Source: a virus. Taken from it: a stretch of DNA of 64,000 bases. A model generated the notes under the pieces. It was not told where the DNA came from, made no database searches, and was given only the letters and a program-made list of their open reading frames with translations. Positions 1,424-62,445 of this stretch are shown in pieces. The position numbers were made by a program, and so were the translations under genes. Within the stretch, counting starts at the first letter, position 1; each line of letters begins with the position of its first letter. Location: the IMG/VR virus record IMGVR_UViG_3300046516_001816, positions 1-64,000 of that record; one strand, given 5' to 3'.

Positions 1424-1464
1424 GCCACTGGGAGCCCCGTAGGAGCTCTCAGTGGCCCTTATGC
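1424..1464. terminator. Bidirectional terminator with TTATGCC tag
   Basis: A 12-bp stem (1424-1435 with 1445-1456, one G-T pair) lies between convergent genes. It is preceded by CATAAA and followed by CCTTATGCC, the tag seen at many other terminators in this window. Confidence 0.8.
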
Positions 1465-1466
1465 CC

Positions 1467-2297
1467 TTAGGCTTCTGCGTAGACACTCAGCAAGCTTGTC
1501 GTCGTCTTGTTGAGGCTCTCCGTGAGTGCAGTGGCTTTGTACCAAATGGCCACATACTGCTCGACTTCCCGTCCCATCTCGTACGATCCTTCCGCAAGCT
1601 CGTGCAGGATTTGCGGGGTGAGCTGGGCGAGGTCGCCACGCGTGGCTTTGTCGGCGATGATATCGAGATAGTGTGCAGCTTCCTCGATCTTCTTATCCAG
1701 CGTGCGACGGTTGACGTGGTTGATCTGCTCGCTCACCAGATTGAGGGCTTCGAACACCGGCTTCCAGTCGGAGTTGCGTTGGACCACATCGCCATAGAGG
1801 GCGTCGGTTTTGCCGGAACCGGCGATGAAGCATTCGCCGAGCATGCGGTTGAACTCGTCGCGCTGGGCTTTGAGCTGGTGGTAGTAGGCCCGGTCCATTT
1901 TGGTGCTGAGCTGGAAGCTGTGCTCGTTAATGAGCTGTCCCAAAAAGACGGTGAACTTGTTGAGGCGTTCCACAACCTGGACGGCATGAGCAGTCGCCTC
2001 CCCCAGAATGTGCAGATACTGAAGGTACGGGACCCGGAGGCCCTCAGGTACTTTCACCGGCATCTGCGAAAGATTCACATAGTTGCGACCGGCAACCTTC
2101 GAGAGAAACTCGTGCTGCTGCGCGGTAAGCGGCGCAATCGCGGGCGCGTTACGTGACACCAACCCTTGCAGGTGATGCAGCATCGTCTTGGCGACCGGAA
2201 CGATATGTTGCAGGCGTTGTACGGGAGCGGGGATCGAAAGCATCTCCAGTGCGATTTGGTCGCGCTGAGCTTTCAGGTCTTCTACGGGCGTGGTCAT
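1467..2297 (-). CDS. Helical protein, probably virion-associated
   Basis: 276 residues, ATG at 2297 with AGGA eight bases upstream. The sequence is predicted almost wholly alpha-helical, with heptad-like stretches over residues 95-150 and 185-270, and has no signal peptide or membrane span. No enzyme motif is seen. Long helical proteins without motifs are common among jumbo-phage virion proteins, which is the only basis for the guess. It is divergent from the ATPase gene that starts at 2414, with a 116-base gap that should hold promoters for both. Confidence 0.7.
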   Translation of the reverse strand: MTTPVEDLKAQRDQIALEMLSIPAPVQRLQHIVPVAKTMLHHLQGLVSRNAPAIAPLTAQQHEFLSKVAGRNYVNLSQMPVKVPEGLRVPYLQYLHILGEATAHAVQVVERLNKFTVFLGQLINEHSFQLSTKMDRAYYHQLKAQRDEFNRMLGECFIAGSGKTDALYGDVVQRNSDWKPVFEALNLVSEQINHVNRRTLDKKIEEAAHYLDIIADKATRGDLAQLTPQILHELAEGSYEMGREVEQYVAIWYKATALTESLNKTTTSLLSVYAEA

Positions 2298-2413
2298 AAG
2301 CGTGTCCTATGCACTGGGCGAAAAGAGGGGTTGCTATAAAATTGTACCTGCCCGAAGCATTCTTTGGTAGGGCATTACAGATTAATTGGACAACAAGCAC
2401 GGATACAAAAGCA
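2298..2413. promoter_or_regulatory. Divergent promoter region
   Basis: This 116-base gap separates two divergent genes and is AT-richer than its flanks. TATAAAAT at about 2335 resembles a bacterial -10 box on the plus strand; no clear -35 is seen. An upstream in-frame ATG at 2309 would read through this region. Confidence 0.4.
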
Positions 2414-3895
2414 ATGCAAATTGACCTTAGAACAAAACTGACGCCGGCTCCGCATGTCAAGTTGCTGATCAACATTGGCGCGTTGCTGGACGTTCCGACT
2501 GGCCACTATATCGAAGGCCGTCGCGGGGAATCGATCCTGCTGGGCGGGCTGGCGCCGATCACCGGGATCGTCGGCATCGGTAACAACTTCAAGTCCACGC
2601 TGATGCACTTCATGACGTTGACCGCCATGAGCCGCATGAAGTTCTCAGCTGGCAAAACGTACGACACCGAAGTGAACATCCACGAATGGCACTTGGCCAA
2701 TATCGTGGCGCGCACCGAATCGTTCTTGGGCGAAGACGTGCTGCAAACCCAGCGCTGGTCGATTACCGACAAGACGATGTACATCGGCGACGAATGGTAC
2801 CGCGAGCACAAGAAGGAGCTCGAGGACAAGGCCAAGCGCAAGGACATCGCGGTGAACACGCCGTTCTGGAATCGCGAACGCAGCGCACCGATGCAGATGA
2901 TGGTGCCGACGTACACCGAGATCGATTCGTTCTCCGAATTCGAAACCTCGGACGTGGTCGATATGCAAGACGTCGATCTGGGCGACTCGAAGGGCAACAC
3001 GATTCACATGCGCCAGGGTCTGCAAAAGACGCGTATCCTGATGGAAGCGCCGCGCATTCACGGCTCGGTCTATGACTACTTGTTGATGACGGCGCACCTG
3101 GGCAAAGAAACGACCATGCAGAACGCGGGTCCGGCGGGCTCGGTGCCGATCGTCAAGCTCAAGCACCTGAAGAACGGCGACAAGATCAAAGGCACGACCG
3201 ACAAGTTCACCTTCGTCACCCACAACTGCTGGCACGCGTTCAATGCGAGTCCGCTGATCAACCAGGGCACGAAGGCACCGGAATATCCGCGTCACCCGGG
3301 CGACGATTTGTTGCTCGACACGGACTTGAACACGGTGCAGATTCGGAACTTGCGCTCGAAGTCGGGCGCCTCGGGCATGGCTCTCACGCTGATCGTGTCG
3401 CAGTCTGAAGGCGTGCTGCCGTCGCTGACCGAATTCCATCACATCAAGGAAAACGAACGCTACGGCATGGAAGGCTCCAACGTCTCGTACTGGCTCACGC
3501 TGTACCCGGCGGCGAAGTTGGGTCGGACCACCGTGCGCTCGAAGATCGACAGCGATCCGCTGCTGCGGCGGGCACTGAACATCACCTCGGAGATGTGTCA
3601 GATGTCGTACCTCTGGCATACGCTGCGTCCCGAGTTCCAGATCACGCCCAAGGAACTGTACGAGAAGCTGAAGGCGGATGGCTACGACTGGAACGTGCTG
3701 CTCAATACGCGCGGCTGGTGGACGCACGAGCTCGGCGAAGCTGATCACTTGCCGTTCCTCTCGGTGATGGATCTGCTGCGTATGACGCTGCCGATCGACG
3801 ATCCGAAGTACTACTTCCCGTACTGGCTCAATGCGGACAAGACGGTGAAGGACGAATACCTTCATCATTTTCAACCTGAACTGAAAGCAGCGTAA
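2414..3895 (+). CDS. RecA/DnaB-superfamily ATPase
   Basis: 493 residues from ATG 2414. A P-loop of the variant type GxGNNFKST lies near residues 55-63; phage recombinases of the UvsX type have a similar FKS/FKT form in place of GKS/GKT. It is followed by a hydrophobic helix as in RecA-fold cores. The C-terminal third has conserved-looking Trp/Tyr-rich helices but no motif I can name. A role in recombination, replication or helicase loading is inferred from the fold only. A canonical Walker B aspartate is not obvious, so a non-enzymatic P-loop protein is possible. The ATG at 2309 is open in frame, but that extension would cross the divergent promoter region. Three small genes follow on the same strand. 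Confidence 0.6.
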   Translation: MQIDLRTKLTPAPHVKLLINIGALLDVPTGHYIEGRRGESILLGGLAPITGIVGIGNNFKSTLMHFMTLTAMSRMKFSAGKTYDTEVNIHEWHLANIVARTESFLGEDVLQTQRWSITDKTMYIGDEWYREHKKELEDKAKRKDIAVNTPFWNRERSAPMQMMVPTYTEIDSFSEFETSDVVDMQDVDLGDSKGNTIHMRQGLQKTRILMEAPRIHGSVYDYLLMTAHLGKETTMQNAGPAGSVPIVKLKHLKNGDKIKGTTDKFTFVTHNCWHAFNASPLINQGTKAPEYPRHPGDDLLLDTDLNTVQIRNLRSKSGASGMALTLIVSQSEGVLPSLTEFHHIKENERYGMEGSNVSYWLTLYPAAKLGRTTVRSKIDSDPLLRRALNITSEMCQMSYLWHTLRPEFQITPKELYEKLKADGYDWNVLLNTRGWWTHELGEADHLPFLSVMDLLRMTLPIDDPKYYFPYWLNADKTVKDEYLHHFQPELKAA

Positions 3896-3916
3896 GCTTT
3901 GAAAGGAAACCGGGCC

Positions 3917-4219
3917 ATGGACTGGATCGAACTCACTCCCGGGCACGAGAACGAAGCGCTCCATATGGGGCTGGAATACGGCGATGAAGTCCTCGTCTTA
4001 AAGACCCATAAGAAGCGCAGCCAGTTAAAGAGCCCGGCAACCTGGACAAGCAGTGGCTTGACGGATGTCTTTCGTGTCGTGGTGATCAATCGCGACAATC
4101 TGCTCGTGCGCCACGACAAGGCCTCCCATTTGCGCTATGTTATCTGGAGACAGGTGCTGGGCTTTCGTAAAGCCGCTAAGCCGTCTCCGGACCCTGAACA
4201 CACTGAACCAACACCATGA
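3917..4219 (+). CDS. Small protein of unknown function
   Basis: 100 residues. The ATG at 3917 has AAGGAA eight bases upstream, better than the TTG at 3899. Residues 20-85 look beta-rich with alternating hydrophobic residues (EVLVLKT, FRVVVINRD); the tail is Pro-rich and probably disordered. The stop codon overlaps the next start as ATGA, so the two genes are likely translationally coupled. Function unknown. Confidence 0.75.
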   Translation: MDWIELTPGHENEALHMGLEYGDEVLVLKTHKKRSQLKSPATWTSSGLTDVFRVVVINRDNLLVRHDKASHLRYVIWRQVLGFRKAAKPSPDPEHTEPTP

Positions 4220-4758
4220 ATAAAAACGCACTCGGTCAACTCTCTGAAGAAGACAAGATCGCACTGCGCCAGCAGCTGCATCCTTACATGCAAGCGTCGC
4301 TCGCGCATCAGCTCGACGCCGTGACGGGGACCTACAAGTTCCGGATCGGCTCCGAGGTCAAGCATCTGGAAACCGGCGGCATTTACATCATCACGGGCCT
4401 GCCCAACGAGAACGTCGTGAAAGCCGGGGACGGCTGGGCCGATGCCTACGCGTATCTGATGGTCGACGGTCGCACCGCGTATCGGGCGCAAGAAGCGATG
4501 GAAGACGGACGCTTTGAAGAAGTACCGGCGGGCTCGGCGCTCGAATACGCCAAACAGCTCGCGGAGAACAAACCGACGGTGGTTGAGAAAGCCGTCGCGG
4601 CTGATGCAAAGCCGACCACGATCAAGGTATCGCTCGAGCAACTCGAAGGCGCGCTGCCGTCGGAATGCAGCAAGATCTACACGGACTACGAGAAGGGCTA
4701 CAACAAGGCACTGCGTCATGCACGCGAGTCGCTCAAAGCCCTTTTCCCGGCAGTGTAA
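4216..4758 (+). CDS. Protein with DUF1653-like segment
   Basis: 180 residues, start overlapping the previous stop (ATGA). Residues 38-95 (YKFRIGSEVKH, GGIYIITGL, VDGRTAYRAQEAM, RFEEV) have the order of short motifs seen in DUF1653-type small domains, where a His/Gly-Gly strand is followed by a conserved Phe-x-Glu end; this is a weak match. An Ala/Lys linker joins it to a helical C-terminus (residues 130-178). A weak hairpin follows the gene. Function unknown. Confidence 0.65.
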   Translation: MNKNALGQLSEEDKIALRQQLHPYMQASLAHQLDAVTGTYKFRIGSEVKHLETGGIYIITGLPNENVVKAGDGWADAYAYLMVDGRTAYRAQEAMEDGRFEEVPAGSALEYAKQLAENKPTVVEKAVAADAKPTTIKVSLEQLEGALPSECSKIYTDYEKGYNKALRHARESLKALFPAV

Positions 4759-4775
4759 GAGTTATTTAACCTGGC

Positions 4776-4814
4776 TTAAGCGTTTGAAATTCGGACGCTT
4801 AATAGTATTATTGT
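4776..4814 (+). terminator. Possible terminator hairpin
   Basis: TTAAGCGT (4776-4783) pairs with ACGCTTAA (4795-4802), followed by an AT-rich run. The stem is only 8 bp and lacks the TTATGCC tag, so it may be weak. Confidence 0.45.
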
Positions 4815-4828
4815 AAAAAATTACTACC

Positions 4829-5203
4829 ATGACCCATAGTGTAGCAGTATCTGCTGAGGCAGAAAATACCGTCGCAGCACCCGAAATCAACGTCGAAAAT
4901 CTGGTCGCCTGGATGACCCAGCTGCTGGCCGAGCGCGGCCATCCGCAACCGGCTGCCTGGACGCAATTCCTGATGGCCGGTATCGACGGGCTGCCCGACA
5001 ACGATTACCAGATGTTCGAGATCAATCGCGCGTGGCGCGTGGCTTTTGCTCGCATTGCGGGTAAGGGCTTGATGACCTCGGAAGAGTCGATGAACGTGCG
5101 CTATTCGTTGATCGACAAGTGCCCCGTGGAAAACTGGAAGGAGTCCTTCGTATCAGGAGTCTTGCCGTGCATTCTTCGTCTTCAGTTGCCGATCCAAAGT
5201 TGA
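4829..5203 (+). CDS. Small protein of unknown function
   Basis: 124 residues, ATG 4829 after an AT-rich leader without a clear Shine-Dalgarno. The first 20 residues are Ala/Val/Glu-rich and probably disordered; the rest is helical with many Trp/Phe residues (AWMTQLL, WTQFLMAG, RAWRVAFARI). The 3' end overlaps the downstream SLOG-family gene by 37 bases, so the pair is likely co-translated. Not recognised. Confidence 0.65.
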   Translation: MTHSVAVSAEAENTVAAPEINVENLVAWMTQLLAERGHPQPAAWTQFLMAGIDGLPDNDYQMFEINRAWRVAFARIAGKGLMTSEESMNVRYSLIDKCPVENWKESFVSGVLPCILRLQLPIQS

Positions 5204-5712
5204 TCGCGCACCAGCCCCTGTCCCATGACGCGATTGCCAATTTCGACGTAGCGATGTTGATTGCGGGCTCGCGTGGTTTCACCGATTACGACCAGTTTGT
5301 GCAGACGCTCGAAGAAGAGATTCTGTACGAACATCCCAAGGATTCGATCATCTTTATCACGGGCGCGGCCAAAAGCGGCCCAGATGATATGATTATCCGC
5401 TGGTGCCGCGAAAACGGCTACGCCTGGACTGAGTTCCCGGCGGATTGGGATGACATTAGCGTACCGGGTTCCTTTGTGAAGAAGAACCGGTTCGGCAAGC
5501 TTTACAATGCCGCTGCCGGCCATCAGCGCAACCGCTTGATGGCTGAAGTGATGACGCATGCGTGTATTTGGTGGGACGGCAAATCGCCGGGCACTGAAAA
5601 CATGATCCGTGAAGCTGAGCGCGTGGGCATCACGCCTAGAGTCTTTATCGTAAACGGAGAAAGGAAACGGGACACGCGTTATGACGACGTTAGGCAAGCG
5701 CAAGGAAGCTGA
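5167..5712 (+). CDS. DUF2493/YspA-like SLOG-fold protein
   Basis: 181 residues from GTG 5167, chosen because AGGAG lies seven bases upstream and earlier candidates have none. The core after residue 30 shows the family pattern: a first strand with AGSRGFTDY, then IIFITGAAKSGPDDMIIRW, a FPADWDD segment, an NRLMAE helix and WWDGKSPGTENMI. Known relatives are Rossmann-like SLOG domains that bind nucleotides or nucleotide-derived ligands and turn up near stress, toxin and defence genes. Ligand and role here are unknown. It overlaps both neighbours. Confidence 0.8.
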   Translation: MHSSSSVADPKLIAHQPLSHDAIANFDVAMLIAGSRGFTDYDQFVQTLEEEILYEHPKDSIIFITGAAKSGPDDMIIRWCRENGYAWTEFPADWDDISVPGSFVKKNRFGKLYNAAAGHQRNRLMAEVMTHACIWWDGKSPGTENMIREAERVGITPRVFIVNGERKRDTRYDDVRQAQGS

Positions 5713-6364
5713 GGCGTTTATTCTGAAATGGATTGCGCGCCTCGTTCCGGGCAGTGACAACGCTGGGCTCTATGGCAACATGTTTGCCAAGATGGATGAC
5801 AAGACGTTTGACGCCTTTATCAAATCAGTCGGTAAGGTGGAAACACGTCTGTCGGTGGTCGTGCCCAACTTTGCGAAAGCGAAGGTCACGATCGAAAACA
5901 ATCTGGCCATTGCCAAAGAGCTCGGGCATGACTTCTACGAACGCCTGTGGATTAAACCCAGTGATGACCAGCCGGCGTATCTGACGCGAGAGAAGTACCT
6001 CGTGATGGATTTGCCGCTGCGTCGTCAAGCACAGCTGCTGGTGAAGAAGATCTCGATTCCGGAAGACAATCAAAGTGTGGACGATCTGACGGGGCAACCG
6101 TCGGGCAAGTCGGACAGCGCCAAGATCTCGTACCCGGAAACGATGGTGCTTACTTCCCTGAAGCTCGATCGCAACCTCACCGAGTTTTTGAAGTACCGAG
6201 GCGGCGACACGCAAGGGTTCAATGCAATGAACGACAGCTTTGCCAAGACGGGGGGTGCTTCGCAAGAAGCGATCAAACATCTGGCAGGCGGTGTTCGCAG
6301 CACACAGACGCTGCGCACCATTCTCACCGCGATGCATTTCTCGGTGGCGGGTCTGGGCGAATAA
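5681..6364 (+). CDS. Conserved-looking protein of unknown function
   Basis: 227 residues, ATG 5681 inside the end of the SLOG gene (32-base overlap). The product is helical with two blocks: residues 1-125, ending in basic helix LPLRRQAQLLVKK, and a second block from 150 with motifs KISYPETMVL, FLKYRGGD and RSTQTLRTIL. I do not recognise it. The overlap with the SLOG gene and the tight spacing to the next gene (18 bases) place it in one operon. Confidence 0.7.
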   Translation: MTTLGKRKEAEAFILKWIARLVPGSDNAGLYGNMFAKMDDKTFDAFIKSVGKVETRLSVVVPNFAKAKVTIENNLAIAKELGHDFYERLWIKPSDDQPAYLTREKYLVMDLPLRRQAQLLVKKISIPEDNQSVDDLTGQPSGKSDSAKISYPETMVLTSLKLDRNLTEFLKYRGGDTQGFNAMNDSFAKTGGASQEAIKHLAGGVRSTQTLRTILTAMHFSVAGLGE

Positions 6365-6382
6365 AGGATAACGGGGTAAACG

Positions 6383-6895
6383 ATGGCATTGACTGCCGAA
6401 GAATGGATTACAGTCGGGGAGGTCTATCAGGACAGCCTCAAGTTCGTGCTGGATAACAACAGCCGGATGCTTGCGCCTGACGTGAACGAGCGCATCATGC
6501 GCTTTATGTACACGTACGTGCTGGTGCAGAAGCCCTTCACCATCACGACTCCGCAAGGCATGCAGCATGCAGTTGAGACTGTCTTCACGGACGAAGCCGT
6601 GCGCGACTTCGTCCTCACGCTGGTCTATGTGTTCTTCAGTCGTTGGGGAGGCACGTCGCAGCGTTTCTCGGAACTCGTCGAGTCCATTGCGTTCGCCGTT
6701 AGCGCAAATGGAAACGGCCCCCTTGGGAATGGTGTAGGTTCGCGCAATGCGATTCCCAAACAACTCCTTGAGGATCTGCCCAAGGAAGACGGGGTACGGT
6801 CACTGCTGGGGGACAACAAATGGATGGTCGTCCTGCTCCTCATGCAACTGGTCGTCGCGTTCCCTGCTCCGCAAGAGAGCAAAACCAAGAAGTAG
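6383..6895 (+). CDS. Helical protein of unknown function
   Basis: 170 residues, ATG 6383. The predicted structure is helices with aromatic/hydrophobic faces (FVLTLVYVFFSRW near residues 76-88; MVVLLLMQLVVAFP near residues 149-162). The second segment is hydrophobic enough for a membrane anchor but is bounded by a charged tail, so a soluble helix is equally possible. No motif is recognised. It is followed by a hairpin at 6928. Confidence 0.7.
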   Translation: MALTAEEWITVGEVYQDSLKFVLDNNSRMLAPDVNERIMRFMYTYVLVQKPFTITTPQGMQHAVETVFTDEAVRDFVLTLVYVFFSRWGGTSQRFSELVESIAFAVSANGNGPLGNGVGSRNAIPKQLLEDLPKEDGVRSLLGDNKWMVVLLLMQLVVAFPAPQESKTKK

Positions 6896-6927
6896 GTCCA
6901 AACGCAGTACAACTGACGTAAACTAGC

Positions 6928-6950
6928 CCGGGAGCGGGACCATCTCCCGG
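6928..6950 (+). terminator. Weak hairpin after the 6383 gene
   Basis: CCGGGAG (6928-6934) pairs with CTCCCGG (6944-6950). There is no T-run and no TTATGCC tag, so it may be an attenuating or protective hairpin and not a strong terminator. Confidence 0.4.
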
Positions 6951-6980
6951 ATCATCATCTCTAAACGCAGCTATGCAACA

Positions 6981-7697
6981 ATGACTGCAAATAAAAAGAT
7001 CGAGACGTTGATGTTCGAGTTGGATGCATTGCTCGACACGCGACTCGGCACCATTCGAAAGATGGGGGTTGAACACGCCGAACGAGTTCTCACTCAGCAG
7101 TACCTTACGAGGGAGATTGACGAATTCGACGGCATCAGTAGTTCTGCCTTCAAAGAGCTGTACAAGAAGCGTGATGTAGAAACACTGAAGTTTAGTACGA
7201 TAACGGCGTTGGTTCCTCAGCTCAAGGATTTGACGACGTTCTTGAGCGAGATGGCGATCACGCGACCCTATTTCGATGGGGTGCAGATCGCAGTCAATGT
7301 GTGGCCTTACAAACTCTCTGCTGAAGAGCGTAAGGACCTGGGTGATTCCGTGTCGGCTTGGACGGGGGGTCTTGTCCCTGTTACGCTGATTAATATCAAA
7401 CCCGAAGCCCTGACGCCACAACTGGTTAAAACGCAGTTCGCCATGATGTTCATGTACGATTATGGCAGCTGGATGGAAATGCACTCGGAAGCGTTCAACG
7501 AAACTCGGCACCGCTGTGCTGAGATTCACCTCGTCGCTCCTGCCATGTATTTCAATGAGAAGCCGGATGAGAAGACTCTTAAGGAGTTGATCCGCGAAGC
7601 CGCGCACCCCTTCCAGGCCGCCATGATGCTGGCCTCTCCGCTAGTCGGCTTAGAACTCATTGACGTGAAGTATTTTAGCGTCGTAGCACCGCAATAA
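6981..7697 (+). CDS. Protein of unknown function
   Basis: 238 residues, ATG 6981. The N-terminal 70 residues look like a helical bundle (KIETLMFELDALLD, GVEHAERVL); the C-terminal half is alpha/beta with strands PVTLINI, MMFMYDYG and IHLVAPAMYF. No catalytic motif is seen. Its end faces the convergent gene that stops at 7804, with a shared hairpin between them. Confidence 0.7.
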   Translation: MTANKKIETLMFELDALLDTRLGTIRKMGVEHAERVLTQQYLTREIDEFDGISSSAFKELYKKRDVETLKFSTITALVPQLKDLTTFLSEMAITRPYFDGVQIAVNVWPYKLSAEERKDLGDSVSAWTGGLVPVTLINIKPEALTPQLVKTQFAMMFMYDYGSWMEMHSEAFNETRHRCAEIHLVAPAMYFNEKPDEKTLKELIREAAHPFQAAMMLASPLVGLELIDVKYFSVVAPQ

Positions 7698-7734
7698 ACG
7701 TACCCTGAGAACACCCGGCATACAACGCCTACCA

Positions 7735-7772
7735 CTCCTAGCCATGCCCAAATCATCGGGGTAGGCTAGGAG
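7735..7772. terminator. Bidirectional terminator hairpin
   Basis: CTCCTAGCC (7735-7743) pairs exactly with GGCTAGGAG (7764-7772), between convergent genes. The flanking TTATGCC tag is not evident here. Confidence 0.65.
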
Positions 7773-7803
7773 CGGAGGGCTAAATCGTCCGGTTAACGTG
7801 CTC

Positions 7804-8310
7804 TCACTGGCCCGGGGTTAAGCTCTGGGCCATAAAGGTATCGAAGTCCATTTGTGCCGCATCGCTGTCCATTTCACCGGGGACCACTTCGGGTTCGGGC
7901 AGGCCAACGGGTAACTGCGGTACAGCGCGACGTTCTTGAATCTGACCGTCGATCACCATCCCAGCTTGCATGGCACCCGGGGTCTGGAGGACCTGGGCAA
8001 TCAACGCTGCGGCCTGTGCCTGAGACGCACCGATCTTCTCATCGGTCTTCAGGCGTTTGCGACCGAGGGCGGCGCGGTCCATCCCGTCAAGCGCGGCCAG
8101 CACCACCATCTTGTCGCCCTTTTCCAGACTGTTCAGCTTCTCGCCGTCTTCCCCCATCATGGCGGTGACAATCTGCTGACGTTTCTTCTGGGTATAGGTA
8201 AGGACATGGTCCTCGCCTTCGATCACTTGCACAACAATTGGTGCGGCTTGATTTACACCAATCGTTTGAGGCGTGTGATCGTGTTGCGCTTCATCGTCGT
8301 CATAGTCCAT
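7804..8310 (-). CDS. Acidic protein of unknown function
   Basis: 168 residues. The ATG at 8310 is preceded on the minus strand by GAGG six bases upstream; the longer frame to 8346 has no such signal. The N-terminus is very acidic (DYDDDEAQHD). The middle (residues 45-120) is a charged helical region rich in Lys, Gln and Ala; the C-terminus is Pro/Glu-rich. No domain recognised. Divergent from the 8422 gene. Confidence 0.7.
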   Translation of the reverse strand: MDYDDDEAQHDHTPQTIGVNQAAPIVVQVIEGEDHVLTYTQKKRQQIVTAMMGEDGEKLNSLEKGDKMVVLAALDGMDRAALGRKRLKTDEKIGASQAQAAALIAQVLQTPGAMQAGMVIDGQIQERRAVPQLPVGLPEPEVVPGEMDSDAAQMDFDTFMAQSLTPGQ

Positions 8311-8421
8311 GACACACCTCGGTAGGCTAGATAGTTTGAGTAACATATCATTCTAATGAGCTTCTTCGCTGAATCTCACTTAAATCAAGCCAAAACGAAC
8401 GGTAAACGAATAGGAGTTGTG
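8311..8421 (+). promoter_or_regulatory. Divergent promoter with ATATCA...TGAG element
   Basis: The element ATATCATTCTAATGAG lies at 8345-8360, about 60 bases before the next plus-strand gene. It matches three other copies in the window (31165, 49726, 54584), each upstream of a plus-strand unit. It is a candidate promoter for a phage RNA polymerase. Confidence 0.5.
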
Positions 8422-8958
8422 ATGAGAAAATGGATTCTACACTGGAAGGCCTGGTGGATGCGACGCCAGTACCTGAAAGTGCGCTTGCTCAACCCGAAGC
8501 TCACGGACCATCAAGCCGCCCGGGAAACGCTGGAAGCCTTGCTCGGTCATCTGAGCGAAGTGCCGTTCCAGCATTTTCACAAGGATGCGGTGATTGGCGT
8601 GGAGCTGAAAGTCTTCTACAAGACGATCGACGAGTATCGTCAGGAGATGAAAGCGCTCTCGGGCCGCTTGCTCAATGAACAAATGATCCAGACCGCCTGG
8701 GCTGACCAGACGGAAAAAGAAGTCGCCATGGACCGGTTCCTCACCTCCAAGGACGGCTTCTACCTGGACGTCGTCGACGCGATTCATGGATTCAAACATG
8801 AAGCGCTGGTGCTCTGTGCCCTCATGCAGAAAAGCGATCAAGCCAAGTTTGGCGTGCATGAACACAACCGCCGCATGCTGCTCAAGTTTATGGCTAACTT
8901 GCGCACGGTGACGGTGCACCTGATCGACACCAGCCACAGCCTGTCCCCACAGGCCTGA
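8422..8958 (+). CDS. Helical protein of unknown function
   Basis: 178 residues. ATG 8422 has AGGAG five bases upstream, preferred over ATG 8356. The N-terminus is basic and Trp-rich (residues 1-16, WILHWKAWWMRR), possibly amphipathic and membrane- or nucleic-acid-binding. The rest is helical with His/Phe-rich stretches (VPFQHFHKD, GVHEHNRRMLLKFM). No family recognised. Confidence 0.7.
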   Translation: MRKWILHWKAWWMRRQYLKVRLLNPKLTDHQAARETLEALLGHLSEVPFQHFHKDAVIGVELKVFYKTIDEYRQEMKALSGRLLNEQMIQTAWADQTEKEVAMDRFLTSKDGFYLDVVDAIHGFKHEALVLCALMQKSDQAKFGVHEHNRRMLLKFMANLRTVTVHLIDTSHSLSPQA

Positions 8959-9006
8959 TGGCAATAAATAAACTAAACCAAGCAGGATTAAACCAAGGAA
9001 AGAATC

Positions 9007-9693
9007 ATGGCACGCAATCAGCTGATGCGTATCTTGAATCGCAAAGATAAAGGAGCGTCACGCGCGTATGGCGTCGGCGGCGTCCTCTCCCGTCTGTGGG
9101 CCCAGATGCTCACGGACTTGGATGTCAATGTAGCGCGCTGGAATGACTACATGCATTCATTTGTGACCGACCCCGGCAATGGGTATCCGCCTACCAAAAA
9201 CGGGCAGACCAGTGCACGCGGGAATCTCACTAAAGAATTCTCACGGCCTCAGATGACCTTTAAGGTCTTTATGAAGGCCCTGCGGTTCTTGAAAGTAATC
9301 CGTGTCGAGATTGCAATCAAATGTCATTACATGGATCGGCCGCCTAGCACGCACGGCACGGAAGTCAACTTTCGCGTCCCGTCCCAGCCTGCGACCACCT
9401 TCATGGAGGACATCAGTCGTCTGAACTCGCCGGAACCCGAGATTCCTCGATACAGTGAGGAAGAAGATGACGAATTCGTGCGAGACATGCTCTCGCTGCT
9501 GTCCAACCCTTTCATGTTCCCGTTCCCGGACGAGGACGTATCGGATCAGGACTTTGAAATCATCCGACCGCAATTTGGGACCACCTCCCAGCCGGCCGAG
9601 GACTTTGGAGGTAATCGTCTAGCACAGATTGCCTACAAGCAGTACCTGGCCGACAAACAACAAATGGAATTTGATCATGAAGAACGCTCCTGA
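9007..9693 (+). CDS. Protein of unknown function with acidic C-terminus
   Basis: 228 residues, ATG 9007 with AAGGAAAG upstream. Residues 1-115 are basic and globular-looking (RIEVAIKCHY-type strands, FKVFMKALRFLKVI helix); residues 140-190 are acidic (SEEEDDEFVRDM, PDEDVSDQD). The split into a basic head and an acidic tail suggests binding to another phage protein or nucleic acid, but nothing is recognised. It overlaps the next gene by 17 bases. Confidence 0.7.
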   Translation: MARNQLMRILNRKDKGASRAYGVGGVLSRLWAQMLTDLDVNVARWNDYMHSFVTDPGNGYPPTKNGQTSARGNLTKEFSRPQMTFKVFMKALRFLKVIRVEIAIKCHYMDRPPSTHGTEVNFRVPSQPATTFMEDISRLNSPEPEIPRYSEEEDDEFVRDMLSLLSNPFMFPFPDEDVSDQDFEIIRPQFGTTSQPAEDFGGNRLAQIAYKQYLADKQQMEFDHEERS

Positions 9694-10231
9694 GAAGCGC
9701 ACGGCCGCGCTGCTGATGCCGAAGGAAAAGCCGCTGCCCGAGTTCGATGGGAAGAAACACATCAACATCGCAGTGGACGCGGCGACGGAATTGGGGCGAA
9801 TGCTCACGCACTTTGCTTCGACACAGTTTATCCATCCCCTCTACGGTCCATTCAAAACCATGGAGGGCTTCTGGCACTTTATCAAGTGTGAAGAGCAGGA
9901 CGATCTGTTCCGCACGCTCTCCGCTTCGCGGGCCAAAAGCCATGCGAAGACGAAGAAAACTGTGTTCCGTGAAAACTTCATCGACATCATTCATGAAGCG
10001 AACTTCTACAAGATCGAGCAGACGCCCGGCTTGAAGGAGCTCATGGTCGAATCCAGCTTGCCGTTTACGTACTACTACATCTTCGGGCCCGAGAAGGTCC
10101 AGGTGTTTCCGAAGCAAGCCGAATGGCTGTGCGCGGGCTTCGAGGAGATCCGCCGCCTGATGAAGGCGGGTCAGGAATACCCGAAGCAACCGAAGGTGTC
10201 GTTTGCGGAACAACAACCGGCGACGGTCTAA
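9677..10231 (+). CDS. NADAR-like (YbiA-type) protein
   Basis: 184 residues from ATG 9677. The pattern after residue 50 (PLYGPFKTMEGFWHFIK) aligns with the YbiA/NADAR motif in which the Glu of P-T-V-E-H is catalytic; here this is E63. The following ASRAKSHAKTKK matches the family's SPxxAKxxG helix, and the C-terminal LKELMV...LCAGFEEIRRLM resembles the family's last helices. Known NADAR proteins act on ADP-ribose or riboflavin-pathway N-glycosides, and some reverse guanine ADP-ribosylation, opposing DarT-type toxins. An anti-defence role here is inference. It ends at a strong terminator. Confidence 0.6.
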   Translation: MKNAPEKRTAALLMPKEKPLPEFDGKKHINIAVDAATELGRMLTHFASTQFIHPLYGPFKTMEGFWHFIKCEEQDDLFRTLSASRAKSHAKTKKTVFRENFIDIIHEANFYKIEQTPGLKELMVESSLPFTYYYIFGPEKVQVFPKQAEWLCAGFEEIRRLMKAGQEYPKQPKVSFAEQQPATV

Positions 10232-10246
10232 ACCGACACAGAGAAA

Positions 10247-10277
10247 AGGGAGGGCCTTCGGGCTCTCTCTTTTTTTT
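10247..10277 (+). terminator. Rho-independent terminator
   Basis: A 10-bp stem (10247-10256 with 10261-10270) closes on a TTCG tetraloop and runs into a T-tract. Classical intrinsic terminator. Confidence 0.9.
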
Positions 10278-10295
10278 GTCTGCTAGGAGCGGGCA

Positions 10296-11852
10296 ATGCC
10301 ATCCAACATTATTGCAAGACCCACATTTCAGACGGGACCTCGGGATAACCTGATTACCGTCGACGTCTTCACCGGCACCTCCGGGGGGATTGTCAATTCG
10401 ATTAAAGCGCTTTCGCAAAAGTACGATGTCGATTTGATCGGCATGTTGCGCGCGGGGGCAGCTGTCGCCCAAGCGATTCCCGTGATTGAAGGGATTGCGC
10501 ACGGCAAACTGTTGATGAATCCGCAAGCGGCGATTGCACGGCTACTCACCGCCTCCAACACCTTGGTCGGGGCCCTGGGGGGTCCGATCAATGCCCTGAA
10601 CAGTACCTTCAGTGCGCTCTCGGCCGACGTACAAGCTGGCATTGCTGCGGCCGGTCAAGTGGTCGGGGAAGTGGAAGTGGCCATTGGCGGGGTGGTCTCC
10701 AGTGTGGTCAATGGTGCCATTGGTGACATCCAGGCGCTGGGCGGACTGATCAACCAGTTCGCGGGCGGCAATGGTTTTCTGATGGTGGACGTGCAGGCAC
10801 TCGGAGGCTTTGCCGCCGGCGTGATTAACGAATGTGCCCGCTACGGGATCTCGGGTGCGTTTGCCCAGATGACCAAGAACATCACCGACCCGCGCGTGCT
10901 CAATGCCATCATTGGGTCGACCCTGCCCAACCTGATTTCGGCCTCCGATATTGGAGGCTTGCAGGCGCTGGCCAACGTCGCCAACGTCGTGGGTATTGGC
11001 GCGATCAATCCGCGGATGTTGCCGCAGTTCACCCGGGCGTATGTTCGGATTGGCTCAGGCAGTGTTCAACAGGCCACCCCGTACCAGGACAGTCAGAACT
11101 GGAACGACATGATGGACTGTTACGACACGGCGCAACCGGACTGGAACGTAGCCAGTCGGGCAGGCGACGATCCGAGCGATCCGACCTTGGATATCACCGC
11201 GCTGCAAAACGGCACGGAAGATTTCAATGCGGCGCTCTCGGCAGGGGTGTACAACAACTCGGCCTCGGCGAGCCCGGACGACAATACGCATTTCTATGCG
11301 CTCGCGCCGCTCTATGAGGACACGGACGTCAATCAGCAAATGAAGGACGCCTATCCGAATAGCTATATCGATCCCGCGCTGCGCTCCACCGATCAAGTTA
11401 TCGATCCGCGGCAAGTGCAAAACGATACCACCCCCGCAGTGGATGCGTCCACCAGTGAGACAGCGTATCAGCCGTCGACCAGTGTGACGAATCAAATACC
11501 GGTCAAGCGGGCAGACGGCACCATCAACTCGGCCCAAAAAGCCAAGGAGATGGCCATGGGGTATAACAGCGGAGCGCTCGTGTTTGACGACAATGAAGCA
11601 CCGCAGAACTCCACTGCTACGAATGATTCGGTGGCTGATACGCCCTCGCCCGTCACGTTCTCGCGTAACGGCAAGACGTATATGACCATTACCGGGGGTC
11701 AGGATCGGGGCACGTATCAGATCGAGCCCAACACTACCGGTCAGCAGGCGCAGGCTAATTCGATTAACTGGGGTCAGGGGTATTGGCACAGCGACGAGAA
11801 GTATCTGTACAATCCCGTCGATGCGACCACCTTGCAACCGGTTAAGAACTAA
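10296..11852 (+). CDS. Virion/tail structural protein (inferred)
   Basis: 518 residues, ATG 10296 with TAGGAG upstream. The N-terminal half (residues 40-230) is Gly/Ala/Val-rich and strongly hydrophobic, with repeated small-residue helices (AAGQVVGEVEVAIGGVVSSVV, split over residues ~115-140); this resembles the membrane-active segments of tail proteins. The C-terminal half (residues 250-518) is Asp/Asn/Thr/Gln-rich, low in hydrophobics, probably extended or disordered. No enzyme motif. Its neighbours are the 717-residue protein and the giant tail protein, which supports a tail role. Confidence 0.6.
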   Translation: MPSNIIARPTFQTGPRDNLITVDVFTGTSGGIVNSIKALSQKYDVDLIGMLRAGAAVAQAIPVIEGIAHGKLLMNPQAAIARLLTASNTLVGALGGPINALNSTFSALSADVQAGIAAAGQVVGEVEVAIGGVVSSVVNGAIGDIQALGGLINQFAGGNGFLMVDVQALGGFAAGVINECARYGISGAFAQMTKNITDPRVLNAIIGSTLPNLISASDIGGLQALANVANVVGIGAINPRMLPQFTRAYVRIGSGSVQQATPYQDSQNWNDMMDCYDTAQPDWNVASRAGDDPSDPTLDITALQNGTEDFNAALSAGVYNNSASASPDDNTHFYALAPLYEDTDVNQQMKDAYPNSYIDPALRSTDQVIDPRQVQNDTTPAVDASTSETAYQPSTSVTNQIPVKRADGTINSAQKAKEMAMGYNSGALVFDDNEAPQNSTATNDSVADTPSPVTFSRNGKTYMTITGGQDRGTYQIEPNTTGQQAQANSINWGQGYWHSDEKYLYNPVDATTLQPVKN

Positions 11853-11870
11853 GCGCTGCATCACCTCACG

Positions 11871-11912
11871 GCATAAAGGCCCGGGCGCTGGCCCGGGCTT
11901 CTATGCTGTCTT
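11871..11912. terminator. Bidirectional terminator with GGCATAA / CTATGC flanks
   Basis: GCCCGGGC (11879-11886) and GCCCGGGC (11891-11898) pair around GCTG. The stem is flanked by GGCATAAA on the left and TTCTATGCTGTC plus a T-run on the right, so both convergent genes get a tagged terminator. Confidence 0.9.
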
Positions 11913-11918
11913 TCTTTT

Positions 11919-14072: not shown

Positions 14073-14101
14073 GGGCTACCTCCTTGATTGTCACCGCAAA
14101 A

Positions 14102-14137
14102 TAAAAGGCAGGCAGGAGCCGAAGCCCCCACCTGCCT
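14102..14137 (-). terminator. Intrinsic terminator of the giant tail gene
   Basis: Read on the minus strand, a 14-bp stem with G-T pairs (14124-14137 with 14106-14119) closes on a TTCG loop and is followed by TTTTATTTT. It lies just past the stop of the 14148 gene. Confidence 0.9.
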
Positions 14138-14147
14138 CACTACATCA

Positions 14148-31078: not shown

Positions 31079-31094
31079 GCAGATAGCCATGAAC

Positions 31095-31137
31095 GGCTAC
31101 AGAGGCTCCTAGGAGCCTCTGTAGCCTTTTATGCCGC
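31095..31137 (+). terminator. Perfect 32-base palindrome terminator with TTATGCCG tag
   Basis: 31095-31126 is an exact palindrome (16-bp arms, no mismatch) followed by TTTTATGCCG. In RNA it forms a long stem with the loop taken from the centre. It ends the protease operon. Confidence 0.9.
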
Positions 31138-31273
31138 ATGCCTGCATTCAATCTTTTTTTACTGATATATCACTATCCTGAGCCCAACCGCAAGAAGCCT
31201 TGCAAACGGGATAAAACTTACACGCATAGCGTATTGAATGATTGACTTTAAACAACGGAGATTTAGGAACTCT
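31138..31273 (+). promoter_or_regulatory. Promoter region with TGATATATCA...TGAG element
   Basis: After a T-rich run, TGATATATCACTATCCTGAG lies at 31163-31182, about 90 bases before the next gene. It is the best example of a four-copy element in the window. Confidence 0.55.
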
Positions 31274-32558: not shown

Positions 32559-32577
32559 GGATGACTTGTTCTCCTGG

Positions 32578-32620
32578 GCGAGAGGGGCAACCCTCTCGCT
32601 TTATGCCCTCTTTCTTTTTT
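32578..32620 (+). terminator. Terminator before the DUF488 gene, TTATGCC tag
   Basis: GCGAGAGGG (32578-32586) pairs exactly with CCCTCTCGC (32591-32599) around GCAA, then TTTATGCCC and a T-rich run. It lies between the leader peptide and the 32633 gene, so it could act as an attenuator. Confidence 0.85.
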
Positions 32621-34008: not shown

Positions 34009-34011
34009 TTG

Positions 34012-34055
34012 ACGGCATAAGAGCCCTCCCCGGTTGGGGAGGGCTTCTATGACGT
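34012..34055. terminator. Bidirectional terminator with GACGGCATAA / CTATGACGT flanks
   Basis: AGCCCTCCCC (34022-34031) pairs exactly with GGGGAGGGCT (34036-34045) around GGTT. GACGGCATAAG on the left is the tag for the minus-strand transcript (TTATGCCGTC); TCTATGACGT on the right serves the plus strand. Confidence 0.92.
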
Positions 34056-34091
34056 GTGCTTATTTTTTTGGTCTGAACGAGCCCCAAAACC

Positions 34092-45126: not shown

Positions 45127-45129
45127 CTT

Positions 45130-45171
45130 GACGGCATAAGGGGAGGGCGCACGCCCTCCCTCTATGACGTT
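45130..45171. terminator. Bidirectional terminator, same flanks as at 34012
   Basis: GGGAGGGC (45141-45148) pairs exactly with GCCCTCCC (45153-45160) around GCAC. The flanks GACGGCATAAG and TCTATGACGT are the same as at the terminator near 34030, although the stems differ. Confidence 0.92.
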
Positions 45172-46890: not shown

Positions 46891-46924
46891 TTGGCGGCAT
46901 AAGTGCCGGACCGAAGCCCGGCAC
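46891..46924 (-). terminator. Terminator with TTATGCCGCC tag (minus strand)
   Basis: GTGCCGG (46903-46909) pairs with CCGGCAC (46918-46924). Read on the minus strand the stem is followed by TTATGCCGCC. It closes the operon 49075-46939. Confidence 0.85.
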
Positions 46925-50084: not shown

Positions 50085-50090
50085 AAACGG

Positions 50091-50119
50091 GGCAGGGCTT
50101 TGGCCTTGCCTTTATGCCG
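50091..50119 (+). terminator. Terminator with TTTATGCCG tag
   Basis: GGCAGGGC (50091-50098) pairs with GCCTTGCC (50103-50110, one G-T) around TTTG, followed by TTTATGCCG. Confidence 0.85.
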
Positions 50120-50175
50120 CTTGGCAAACTTTACTGCGCACCCAGTAGCGTATGAGACGCTCTAAGGAGAGCTTA

Positions 50176-53175: not shown

Positions 53176-53205
53176 GCCCCGGGTTCGCCCGGGGCCTTAT
53201 GCCGT
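53176..53205 (+). terminator. Terminator with TTATGCCGTC tag
   Basis: GCCCCGGG (53176-53183) pairs exactly with CCCGGGGC (53188-53195) around TTCG, followed by CTTATGCCGTC. Confidence 0.9.
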
Positions 53206-53230
53206 CAACTAAACCAAAACGGAGCAGTCC

Positions 53231-53701
53231 ATGTCTGATATCAAACATTCCCCCGAAGTGCAACCCACCATCGACACCAAAGACATCGAGAACTTCATTG
53301 ACCGTCGCCAGTGGGAAATGCTTCCGGAGAAAACGTACCTGCAACGCTTCACGGTTACGCACGCGCTGCGCCGCCAACTGCCCTACGGCAAGTGGACCTG
53401 TGCGGATGGTCGTGAAGTCGTGTTCAACCGTGAGTACCAACCGATCCTGCAACGCCTCAACGGCGTCTGCGCCTACGCCAATCCGGGCGAGTGGGTCGAG
53501 AACATCATCGACACCGAAATGTACTACGACGACCTCACCAACCCGATCGGTGCTACGAAGTACGCCGGCCATCTGCCTGAAGCCCGCGTGCGTCGTATGT
53601 GCAAGCGCTCGATGTTGATTTGTTTGAAGGTTCTCAAGGAGTTCACCCCGGAAGAAAGGGGATCGGTGAGCCGTGAGTGGAGCATCAAGCAAAGCTATTA
53701 A
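53231..53701 (+). CDS. Protein of unknown function
   Basis: 156 residues, ATG 53231 with GGAG upstream. Mostly helical, with Arg-rich stretches (EARVRRMCKRSM) and a beta hairpin near residues 55-70 (YGKWTCADGREVVFNREY region). No motif recognised. Codon bias resembles the previous gene. It converges on the 53756 gene. Confidence 0.65.
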   Translation: MSDIKHSPEVQPTIDTKDIENFIDRRQWEMLPEKTYLQRFTVTHALRRQLPYGKWTCADGREVVFNREYQPILQRLNGVCAYANPGEWVENIIDTEMYYDDLTNPIGATKYAGHLPEARVRRMCKRSMLICLKVLKEFTPEERGSVSREWSIKQSY

Positions 53702-53708
53702 GTTAGCT

Positions 53709-53757
53709 GGCATAAACCCCTCCCTCACGGGAGGGGCGTAGACTGCCTTCTTTTTTT
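53709..53757. terminator. Bidirectional terminator with GGCATAAA flank
   Basis: CCCCTCCC (53717-53724) pairs exactly with GGGAGGGG (53729-53736) around TCAC. GGCATAAA precedes it; a T-rich run follows. Minus-strand tag: TTTATGCC. Confidence 0.9.
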
Positions 53758-54559
53758 AGCGATTGCCGCCGAGCATCAACCGCAACGTGCGCGTGTAGCG
53801 TTCCCGGTCGTTCATATACGCGACCTTGGTCCACTTGTCCCGCAGATGATCCTGGTAGTTCTGTTCGGCATCCGCGTAACCGTCGATGATGTCCTTGATC
53901 CGGCCAATCGTCTGACCCCCACGCAGTTCCCCGACATCCAGGTCAATCACGTAGTTGTTGTAGATATAGGACTTGACCGCGTACTCCACCAGCTTGGCAA
54001 AGACGTGGTAGCTGCGCAGCTGGATGTTGTTCAGGTTCTCATCGTTGGCGACGATACAGCGCAGGTATGCGTTGGCCGGCATCGTCATCACGTCTTCGAT
54101 CAGCACGATGTTCTCGCCAATCAAACTGATCCGGGCAGTGGAGGTTTGTGGAATCATCCCCATCGCATCCATCACGGCTTGTCCGGCTTGGAGCATCATG
54201 TTGTTCTGACCGTTCGCCGCGACCCCCGCAGCACTGATACGCGACGGATCGGCAAAGGACACGTTGAGCACCGACATGATGGACGCGCCATTGGTGCGAT
54301 CTTTCGGGATGCGGTAGACCGACTGGTACATCTCGTCGCCCCCGGTGCGCAGCCCATCCAGACAGATCCAGATCTCACGGCCTCCCACGAGGTTACAGTC
54401 GACCAACACGCGCGGCCGCATAACCAAGGCCATAATCTGCTCATCGACGCTCTTGGGCGTATCGCGCCAGCGCTCGGTGCGGTTCACAAAAACCGTATGC
54501 AGGATTTCCTTGGGAATCCGGAACTGCACTTCGGTGAGGGCTTTCGAAATTGGGTTCAC
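53756..54559 (-). CDS. Protein of unknown function, perhaps virion structural
   Basis: 267 residues, GTG 54559 with AGGAG six bases upstream. Two parts: a beta-rich N-terminal half (RPRVLVDCNLVG, EIWICLDGL) and a half with long charged helices (NNYVIDLDVGELRGGQTIGRIKD region). No motif recognised. Divergent from the 54641 gene. Structural role is a guess from its overall look. Confidence 0.6.
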   Translation of the reverse strand: MNPISKALTEVQFRIPKEILHTVFVNRTERWRDTPKSVDEQIMALVMRPRVLVDCNLVGGREIWICLDGLRTGGDEMYQSVYRIPKDRTNGASIMSVLNVSFADPSRISAAGVAANGQNNMMLQAGQAVMDAMGMIPQTSTARISLIGENIVLIEDVMTMPANAYLRCIVANDENLNNIQLRSYHVFAKLVEYAVKSYIYNNYVIDLDVGELRGGQTIGRIKDIIDGYADAEQNYQDHLRDKWTKVAYMNDRERYTRTLRLMLGGNR

Positions 54560-58075: not shown

Positions 58076-58149
58076 GGAAGGGCTTCCAGGATCGTGAGCG
58101 CGAGCCACGAAGCGAAGCCCTTCCCCCTTCTTTCTTTTATGCCGTCAGG
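58076..58149 (+). terminator. Terminator with TTTTATGCCGTC tag
   Basis: GGAAGGGCTTC (58076-58086) pairs exactly with GAAGCCCTTCC (58114-58124), with an inner TCGTG/CACGA pair of arms. Then CCCTTCTTTC and TTTTATGCCGTC. It is the likely 3' end of RNA B. Confidence 0.88.
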
Positions 58150-61451: not shown

Positions 61452-61461
61452 GTGAGCGATC

Positions 61462-61890
61462 ATGACGTATAACTATCAACTCGGCCAGATTCTGAGCTTT
61501 GACACGAATGCCGCTTCGGTGCTCGGCCAGAGCTTTGAGAACGTGACGGTCCTCTCCTTGATGGATCCGCAATCGGCGAACAACGTGATTGACATCGTAG
61601 GCATGCACGCCGCAGTGTATCCGTTGCTGGTGCAAGCGGGCTTGTCGGTGCCCAACGATCCGAGTCAGTACAACTATCTCAAGATCCGGACCCAGGCGGG
61701 TAAGGTCACGTGTCTGGGGATGCCCTGGATTAACGAGTCGACCATTACGGCCACCACCAACCAAGTCATCACGGCGGTGATTGCCGGGGTGACGGCCGCC
61801 GACGTGCAAGGCGTGCAGAACGCACTGATTGCCAACGGCTACAACCAGTTTAAAGTGACGATCACGCCGCTCTCCACCACGGGTGGTTGA
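61462..61890 (+). CDS. Protein of unknown function, perhaps virion
   Basis: 142 residues, ATG 61462; it has a short leader after the terminator and no clear Shine-Dalgarno. Ser/Thr/Val-rich, beta-like, with Asn/Gln and few charged residues (NVTVLSLMDPQSANNVIDIVG, VITAVIAGVTAADVQG regions). Composition resembles small decoration or baseplate proteins, which is only an impression. Followed by a tagged leader and a terminator at 62005. Confidence 0.6.
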   Translation: MTYNYQLGQILSFDTNAASVLGQSFENVTVLSLMDPQSANNVIDIVGMHAAVYPLLVQAGLSVPNDPSQYNYLKIRTQAGKVTCLGMPWINESTITATTNQVITAVIAGVTAADVQGVQNALIANGYNQFKVTITPLSTTGG

Positions 61891-62004
61891 TAGTATGTAG
61901 GGCATAAAGCAGGGAAGATAGTAGTTCGGGGGTAGTACGAGCAGGACCGCAGGTTGACCATGTTGTACCGTTGTAGAAGTGTTTCAGTTTCCTTGGTAAT
62001 TGTG

Positions 62005-62037
62005 CCTAGTCATCCCCCCGGGTGACTAGGTCTTTTT
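62005..62037 (+). terminator. Terminator hairpin
   Basis: CCTAGTCA (62005-62012) pairs exactly with TGACTAGG (62023-62030), with an inner CCC/GGG, followed by TCTTTTT. It probably ends the transcript of the 61462 gene after about 110 non-coding bases. Confidence 0.85.
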
Positions 62038-62428
62038 GCCGGCATGTGGTTGATTAGTATAAAACTTATCGCGTTTGTATATGTTACGACGGAGTGCCAT
62101 GCTCCGTGTAGGAAGGGTGTTGATGCGTGCTCCTCGGGCTTTTGGTGGCGGGCGCGGGCAGCAACACTAATGGGATCGGCTAAACCCATTTGCTAAGTGT
62201 CGAAAGATGACGACAGCGAGAATCTCGTTGGGGAACGAGAAGACGCCAACCAGGAAGGGTTGAAGCTGGTTTCTTTAAAGGTGGTGTGCCAAGGCTTTTC
62301 CTTGGGGCATGCGGTGCATCACTGAACACGGGGCTGATCGCGCCCTCGTGAAGGAGAAGCTAAGCTCCCGTTCCTGTTTTTCACGTTGGGGAGGGTCTTT
62401 CGGGAACCCTCCCCTTCTTTTTTCCTTT
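62038..62428 (+). ncRNA. Structured non-coding region C
   Basis: About 390 bases bounded by the terminator at 62005 and a tagged terminator at 62388. An AT-rich start (TATAAAACTT at ~62059; TATATGTTAC at 62078-62087) may be its promoter. Hairpins: ACGGAG/CTCCGT (62089-62107), GTGTTG/CAACAC (62117-62167), TCTCGTT/AACGAGA with GGGG loop (62223-62240), CCAAGG/CCTTGG (62289-62305). Short frames inside lack start signals. A discrete small RNA is the best reading; its identity is unknown. Confidence 0.5.
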
Positions 62429-62445
62429 TATGCCGTCTCGCTTAT
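62388..62445 (+). terminator. Terminator with TTTTATGCCGTC tag
   Basis: GGGGAGGGT (62388-62396) pairs exactly with ACCCTCCCC (62406-62414), followed by TTCTTTTTTCC and TTTTATGCCGTC. Probable 3' end of RNA C. Confidence 0.92.

Follow-up and report, generated by a model that had tools for sequence, protein, structure and literature searches.

Gene ends in the window

The window analysed here is the whole 64,000-nucleotide stretch formed by bases 1-64000 of IMG/VR record IMGVR_UViG_3300046516_001816, the 284,983-bp record of a phiKZ-like jumbo phage, and the element in question is a short word that follows hairpins at the ends of its genes. The window encodes a virion-type RNA polymerase (RNAP) beta subunit (23444-27832) as well as a tail sheath and a terminase, each with a PHROG match. 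No DNA similarity to known phages was found for a part of the window that was compared, and comparison of the virion RNAP beta protein places Burkholderia phage FLC9 (53%) and Xanthomonas phage LucasX (40%) as the nearest named relatives, followed by many phiKZ-like phages. At gene ends of this phage and of most relatives examined, a hairpin is followed by the fixed short word TTTATGCCGTC, hereafter the tag, in place of the usual T-run. This predicted terminator signature is real, strand-specific and widely conserved in phiKZ-like phages, and it suggests that the unusual RNAP of the phage may stop at a specific sequence.

The sequence analysed consisted of the entire record and ten relatives, together with EL, most of SPN3US and parts of AR9 and PhiPA3. 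Genes were called with a purpose-made codon-usage dynamic programme, the starts of which are approximate and the stops reliable enough for gene-end analysis, and hairpins were detected with a simple scoring scheme. Gene classes were assigned by homology to the phiKZ annotation and phiKZ early promoters by motif match. Pooled counts cover the nine tag-bearing phages, phiKZ included; since these phages are related, such counts are not independent trials. The hairpins and tags of the window, with one untagged hairpin for contrast, are as follows.

1424..1456, predicted bidirectional terminator: a hairpin in the gap of the convergent pair 994-1404 (+) and 1467-2297 (-)
1460..1468 (+), tag TATGCCCTT of hairpin 1424-1456
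1413..1421 (-), opposed tag TATGACGCA of hairpin 1424-1456
11868..11909, hairpin in the gap of the convergent pair 10296-11852 (+) and 11919-14072 (-); its two tags pair at the base
11867..11875 (-), tag TATGCCGTG of hairpin 11868-11909
11902..11910 (+), opposed tag TATGCTGTC of hairpin 11868-11909, followed by a T-rich stretch
14105..14138 (-), untagged hairpin for contrast, 3' of tail gene 14148-21749, with a tail of the second class (TTTTATTTTGCG)
31088..31133 (+), hairpin 3' of gene 30326-31078
31130..31138 (+), tag TATGCCGCA; the orthologous end is tagged in eight relatives as well
32576..32601 (+), hairpin upstream of gene 32624-33061
32602..32610 (+), tag TATGCCCTC of hairpin 32576-32601
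34016..34051, hairpin in the gap of the convergent pair 33535-34008 (+) and 34092-35078 (-)
34011..34019 (-), tag TATGCCGTC of hairpin 34016-34051
34048..34056 (+), opposed tag TATGACGTG of hairpin 34016-34051
45135..45166, hairpin between the terminase gene 42880-45126 (+) and gene 45170-45505 (-)
45130..45138 (-), tag TATGCCGTC, a few bases past the opposite stop codon
45163..45171 (+), opposed tag TATGACGTT of hairpin 45135-45166
46903..46924 (-), hairpin 3' of gene 47066-47500 (-)
46893..46901 (-), tag TATGCCGCC of hairpin 46903-46924
50089..50112 (+), hairpin 3' of gene 49764-50084
50113..50121 (+), tag TATGCCGCT of hairpin 50089-50112
53176..53195 (+), hairpin 3' of gene 52416-53141
53198..53206 (+), tag TATGCCGTC, for which no perfect pairing partner lies 5' of the stem
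53717..53736, hairpin in the gap of the convergent pair 53231-53701 (+) and 53756-54559 (-)
53706..53714 (-), tag TATGCCAGC of hairpin 53717-53736
58076..58124 (+), branched hairpin upstream of the spaced tag at 58138
58138..58146 (+), tag TATGCCGTC, 13 nt past the stem
62388..62414 (+), hairpin and then a T-run, upstream of the spaced tag at 62429
62429..62437 (+), tag TATGCCGTC, 14 nt past stem 62388-62414

All of the tag copies listed in an earlier, sequence-only reading of the window are present, and that list lacked the opposite-strand partners at 1421 (-), 11902 (+), 34048 (+) and 45163 (+). The flanks that it described as shared around the hairpins at 34012 and 45130 exist as well, but they are simply the two opposed tags of each hairpin. 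Its placement of the tag directly behind the stem describes most of the listed sites but not 58138 and 62429, where a T/C-rich stretch intervenes. Such spaced variants, consisting of a hairpin, a T/C-rich stretch and TTTTATGCCG at most 14 nt from the stem, also occur at record positions 138484 and 219451. A copy of TTATGCCCTA at 61898-61907 (-) has no recognisable hairpin and sits in a 600-bp interval (61891-62493) where no gene was called.

Enrichment and anatomy of the tag

The window holds 10 exact copies of TTATGCCG where 1.5 are expected, and none of 100 shuffles reaches 10. Nine of these ten copies are intergenic, and the remaining one (25949, minus strand) lies within the RNAP gene. Over the whole genome the word is enriched between genes, with 35 intergenic versus 4 coding copies, a 74-fold density ratio; the look-alike TATGGCG is distributed in the opposite way (0 intergenic versus 30 coding). 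When 7-mers are ranked without bias by intergenic versus coding occurrence, TATGCCG leads and TTATGCC follows in this phage, and the two words also rank near the top for G004, FLC9, Ea35-70, Noxifer, G001 and LucasX. A 10-mer search that allows two mismatches masks the signal (66 versus 51 expected).

The close relatives L030 (G001), L031 and L032 (2902759955, 2756170199, 2852743531) are contigs of 139-172 kb with names that have no metagenome prefix, and they possibly stem from assemblies of bacterial isolates; the record behind L032 has zero copies of TTATGCCG.

Alignment behind stems resolves a consensus C-T-T-T-A-T-G-Y-Y-G-T-Y that starts within about 0-3 nt of the stem, with YTTATGYYGTY as the conserved core of the tag. 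The anchored profiles read YTTTATGYYGTY, and TATG itself starts mostly 0-3 nt past the stem, or pairs instead at the stem base where the opposite flank holds the complementary word. When the pattern YTAT-N-YYG is searched behind hairpins with N left free, 149 of the 152 convergent matches and 127 of the 174 tandem ones have G at this position, and T makes up most of the remainder; the pattern matches at only 3 of 1317 coding hairpins in all.

The association with hairpins holds at 529 gene ends in the nine phages, and copies far from any hairpin are few. This genome has 117 hairpin-bearing gene ends, and the description of most terminators as tagged is correct for convergent ends, where TATG is found at the stem end in 26 of 28 (93%), but not for the whole set, about half of which is tagged (58/117; tandem 32/89, 36%). 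The pooled values are 256/306 for convergent and 273/750 for tandem ends; phiKZ has 32 tagged convergent ends. Hairpins in coding regions carry TATG at the stem end in 6 of 387 cases in this phage and 4 of 336 in Noxifer, and the phiKZ background is high (30/204) because its genome is AT-rich.

As a rule, no U-tract directly follows the tagged hairpins. The number of T residues before TATG is mostly 0-3, and a T-run of at least 5 is present in only 5% of the 529 tagged ends. A scan of positions 1-20000 for U-run terminators gave no excess (21 versus 19.0 in shuffles) and overlooked both tagged hairpins in that range (1424 and 11868). Rfam covariance models identified no family at gathering score anywhere in the window. 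Many convergent pairs (11902; record 238626 and 254801) have a T-run on one strand only, about 10 nt past the stem and beyond the tag, while the partner strand in these pairs has the tag alone.

Position and strand of the tag

Does the tag mark the start of a transcript or its end? Convergent gene pairs contain transcript ends only, and divergent pairs contain starts only. Over the nine phages, TATGCCG is present in 122 copies in convergent regions and in 7 copies in divergent regions. Individually, the convergent regions that contain it number 14/16 in this phage, 17/19 in Noxifer, 15/16 in Ea35-70, 15/22 in Eowyn, 14/17 in G004 and 5/20 in phiKZ, and divergent regions hold 0-2 copies per genome. 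At convergent hairpins TATG tags often occupy both flanks and point outward, and in tandem regions the tag lies on the sense strand 147 times versus 31 times on the opposite strand (p = 3e-19). Because the tag points outward at convergent junctions and is nearly gone from divergent regions, it is predicted to be a gene 3'-end signal and not a promoter. The contrast between convergent and divergent regions, the tandem strand bias and the conservation across phages described below strongly support this assignment, which agrees with the sequence-specific signal at transcript 3' ends that the sequence-only reading had favored.

An alternative hypothesis, also raised in that reading, is that a late promoter lies behind each terminator, with TATG as its word and transcription starting at the G, as in phiKZ late promoters. 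TATG is the promoter word of the phiKZ non-virion RNAP (nvRNAP; PMC4666361), the tag likewise presents it on the non-template strand, and in six phages 76 of 183 tandem tags (about 40%) are located 20-60 nt upstream of the next start codon. However, a late promoter would be expected 5' of late genes, divergent regions included, and the counts of TATGCCG above do not show this placement; in convergent regions such promoters would produce antisense RNA. The TATG words that divergent regions do contain, including the mapped phiKZ promoter P119L, mostly lack CCG, and in phiKZ they cluster 25-50 nt upstream of the start codon. Moreover, the distance of the tag is fixed to the hairpin and not to the start codon, and at tagged tandem ends a further TATG of promoter type, distinct from the tag, is more often present 20-60 nt upstream of the following start codon (42/183 versus 40/355, p = 6e-4). 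The orientation of TATG in divergent 5' flanks was uninformative as a promoter test because both strands carry the word. We consider it very unlikely that promoter activity is the main role of the tag.

The flanking words GGCATA and TATGCC can pair at many convergent ends, which raises the question of whether the tag is simply the base of an extended perfect stem that is kept for pairing. A stem would need both of its arms equally, in conflict with the 147:31 sense bias, and about half of the tagged tandem ends have no pairing partner and keep TATGCCGT equally well. Conservation of the tag is unchanged at the 122 ends that have no upstream pairing partner, which argues that it acts as a sequence and not merely as stem. 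Pairing as the sole reason for the tag is extremely improbable.

Conservation across phages

Each of the nine tag-bearing phages shows the arrangement of hairpin and tag, and at orthologous genes the stems that the tag accompanies are unrelated. A comparison of orthologous ends between this phage and G004 gives 27 ends tagged in both, 30 tagged in neither and 7 discordant (p = 3e-11), and comparisons with FLC9 and G001 give similar results. Restriction to tandem ends leaves p = 2e-7 for G004 and borderline values for FLC9 and G001, with too few cases in remoter phages. All nine phages carry the tag at the end of gene 245827-248037, a site that aligns with the end of the phiKZ major head protein gene. 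FLC6 has a weak tag. Mapping of tag presence on a tree of the virion RNAP requires several losses or gains, a soft result in that most untagged phages have the longest branches.

Could the tag be a DNA-level repeat, an uptake or packaging word that happens to lie at terminators? In Neisseria, the uptake word includes ATGCCGTC and frequently lies in terminators, and the title of one study (PMC1852404) connects terminators with DNA uptake. However, the tag requires TAT in front and a close hairpin, is strand-specific at gene ends, and is found in phages with Pseudomonas, Erwinia or Klebsiella as host. Only 2 copies of the complete uptake 10-mer GCCGTCTGAA are present in the 285-kb record, and each relative has 0-2. 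An uptake-sequence terminator of the Neisseria type was rejected since this defining word is nearly absent, and a coincidental repeat of any such kind is hardly credible.

Other tails and intergenic words

A second class of tail, TTTATTTTG(T/C) in this phage and TTTATTYCGT in Noxifer and phiKZ, is found behind untagged hairpins. It is nearly absent at convergent ends and is kept at orthologous ends (pooled p = 1e-4); the tail type of hairpin 14105-14138 also appears at the orthologous end in phiKZ, FLC9, G004 and G001. At convergent hairpins of SPN3US and EL, a TTTATTTT-like stretch lies a few bases away, often symmetrically on both strands, and this is a different fixed tail with the same predicted role.

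Among intergenic words genome-wide, TAAACCA, CTAAACC and AACCAAG are strongly enriched (TAAACCA 38 intergenic versus 10 coding), and close relatives have AACCAAG or ACAAGGA as enriched intergenic words. Words of the TAAACCA type are perhaps an extended ribosome-binding context.

Model for transcript ends

How would such a tag define the end of a transcript? We hypothesize that the hairpin and tag together form a variant intrinsic terminator of the phage multisubunit RNAP, in which a sequence-specific tail replaces the U-tract, and the pattern of the tag makes this the probable explanation. A GC-rich hairpin would form in the nascent RNA, with the fixed word within about 0-3 nt of it taking the place of the U-tract, and at a convergent junction a single hairpin would be used by both strands with an outward tag on each side. 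Bacterial terminators release RNA about 7-9 nt past the stem, and at the same distance the RNA 3' end in this phage would fall within the GCC of the tag. The RNA-DNA hybrid of such a sequence is far stronger than one of oligo-U, and for this reason a polymerase that stops at the tag should need a sequence-specific pause.

The likely reader would be the phage multisubunit RNAP, with the non-virion enzyme, the source of late mRNA, as the most plausible candidate. In phiKZ this enzyme has five subunits and has been produced recombinantly. A tag read by the late enzyme would be expected to favor structural genes, and in phiKZ 27 of 41 structural-gene units are tagged versus 7 of 27 early-promoter units (p = 0.003). 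Moreover, the tail contains TATG, the late-promoter word of the nvRNAP, so that the polymerase may re-read the tail as a pause. In phiKZ, GP123 binds TATG at positions -3 to +1 of the non-template strand beneath the beta-lobe (PMC12809450). The pocket that holds TATG at late promoters could catch the same word during elongation, and this capture would pause the enzyme and let the hairpin release the RNA. All aligned relatives, tagged or untagged, keep the pocket contacts F151, H331 and Q466, and the link between pocket and tag is thus permissive, not proven. The idea that loss of the tag is tied to the GP123 pocket was rejected, as the contacts are conserved in tagged and untagged phages alike and the virion RNAP tree needs several label changes.

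An alternative hypothesis is that transcription continues past the tag and that the 3' end arises by processing or protection, with a nuclease or RNA-binding protein recognizing the hairpin and UUUAUGCCGUC. This predicts an identical pattern, namely a strand-specific word at gene 3' ends adjacent to a hairpin, and the two mechanisms are inseparable by sequence alone; a processed 3'-UTR RNA is known from phiKZ (PMC8545117). However, convergent genes are often 40-60 bp apart with tags that touch the opposite stop codon (e.g., 45127-45169), and since run-on between such close genes would yield antisense RNA, the arrangement favors stopping at the tag. No candidate nuclease was identified, and we regard processing as an unlikely, minority rival.

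Several observations weigh against termination at the tag as proposed. More than half of the tandem hairpin ends are untagged, which indicates that the tag is not required everywhere, and the second tail, TTTATT(Y)YGT, shows that its G is replaceable at tandem ends. Outside phiKZ, when single genes are classified, the tag is used equally in structural and other genes. The tag was not found in PCH45, SPN3US and EL, nor in the parts of AR9 that were read; PCH45 gene ends have T-runs and a few TTGTGCTGTT tails instead. As the pocket residues are kept in untagged PCH45, SPN3US and EL, the link to the pocket is not exclusive, and because the proposed pocket is incomplete in the structure of a transcribing complex, capture during elongation is unproven. 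Both termination and the position of the 3' end are what we infer from the pattern of the tag. A more speculative extension, which we put forward tentatively and with some doubt, is that one word, TATG, serves both transcript ends: it would specify a start in the open pocket and a stop behind an RNA hairpin with YYGT, and the G-to-T tail (TTTATT..GT) would mark ends that are meant to leak or are made by the other phage polymerase.

Significance and comparison with known systems

Stopping by the multisubunit RNAPs of phiKZ-like, nucleus-forming phages has hardly been studied. A review remarks that elongation and termination by the AR9 enzyme should be unlike those of canonical enzymes (PMC7598289), and a study of Erwinia jumbo phages applied MEME to genomes of the Ea35-70 group and pursued no motif for lack of significance (PMC6690015). 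The literature search turned up no description of a terminator tag for phages of this group, with the phiKZ transcriptome paper (10.1128/JVI.01347-14) outside its coverage and a prior mention there possible; an intrinsic-terminator variant with a sequence-specific tail has apparently not been described before in the literature searched. The word TATG is too short to specify promoters, and some intergenic TATG words look like stops, marked by a hairpin and the tail. The shared tail accounts for the failure of U-run predictors to find these terminators and could make transcript ends predictable from sequence, with use in operon mapping of unannotated jumbo phages. It also provides a handle for asking whether the TATG pocket works in termination as well.

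The tagged ends resemble bacterial intrinsic (Rho-independent) terminators in their GC-rich hairpin just past the stop codon, the short T stretch (0-3 T) before TATG and their bidirectional arrangement between convergent genes, but they lack a U-tract and have in its place a fixed word, with a G that is near-invariant after TAT at convergent ends, followed by YYGT. They share with phiKZ late promoters, which the nvRNAP uses with a start at G, the same TATG on the non-template strand, but the tag lies at 3' ends behind hairpins, continues as YYGTY and is avoided in divergent regions. The class II termination signal of T7 RNAP is sequence-specific and hairpin-free and is recognized by a single-subunit enzyme; here too a phage polymerase is predicted to stop at a fixed word and not at a U-run, although the T7 signal has another sequence, no hairpin and a different type of enzyme. 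Neisseria uptake-sequence terminators carry ATGCCGTC in inverted pairs, and the tag differs from them in lacking the CTGAA half, in having no link to uptake and in leaving the stem sequence free. Finally, E. coli RNAP with retained sigma70 pauses genome-wide (PMC7876045), and the proposed re-reading of a promoter word during elongation to pause the enzyme would be similar to that mode of pausing. The bacterial case concerns elongation control that needs retained sigma70, whereas in the phage the word would act at terminators through a beta-like subunit.

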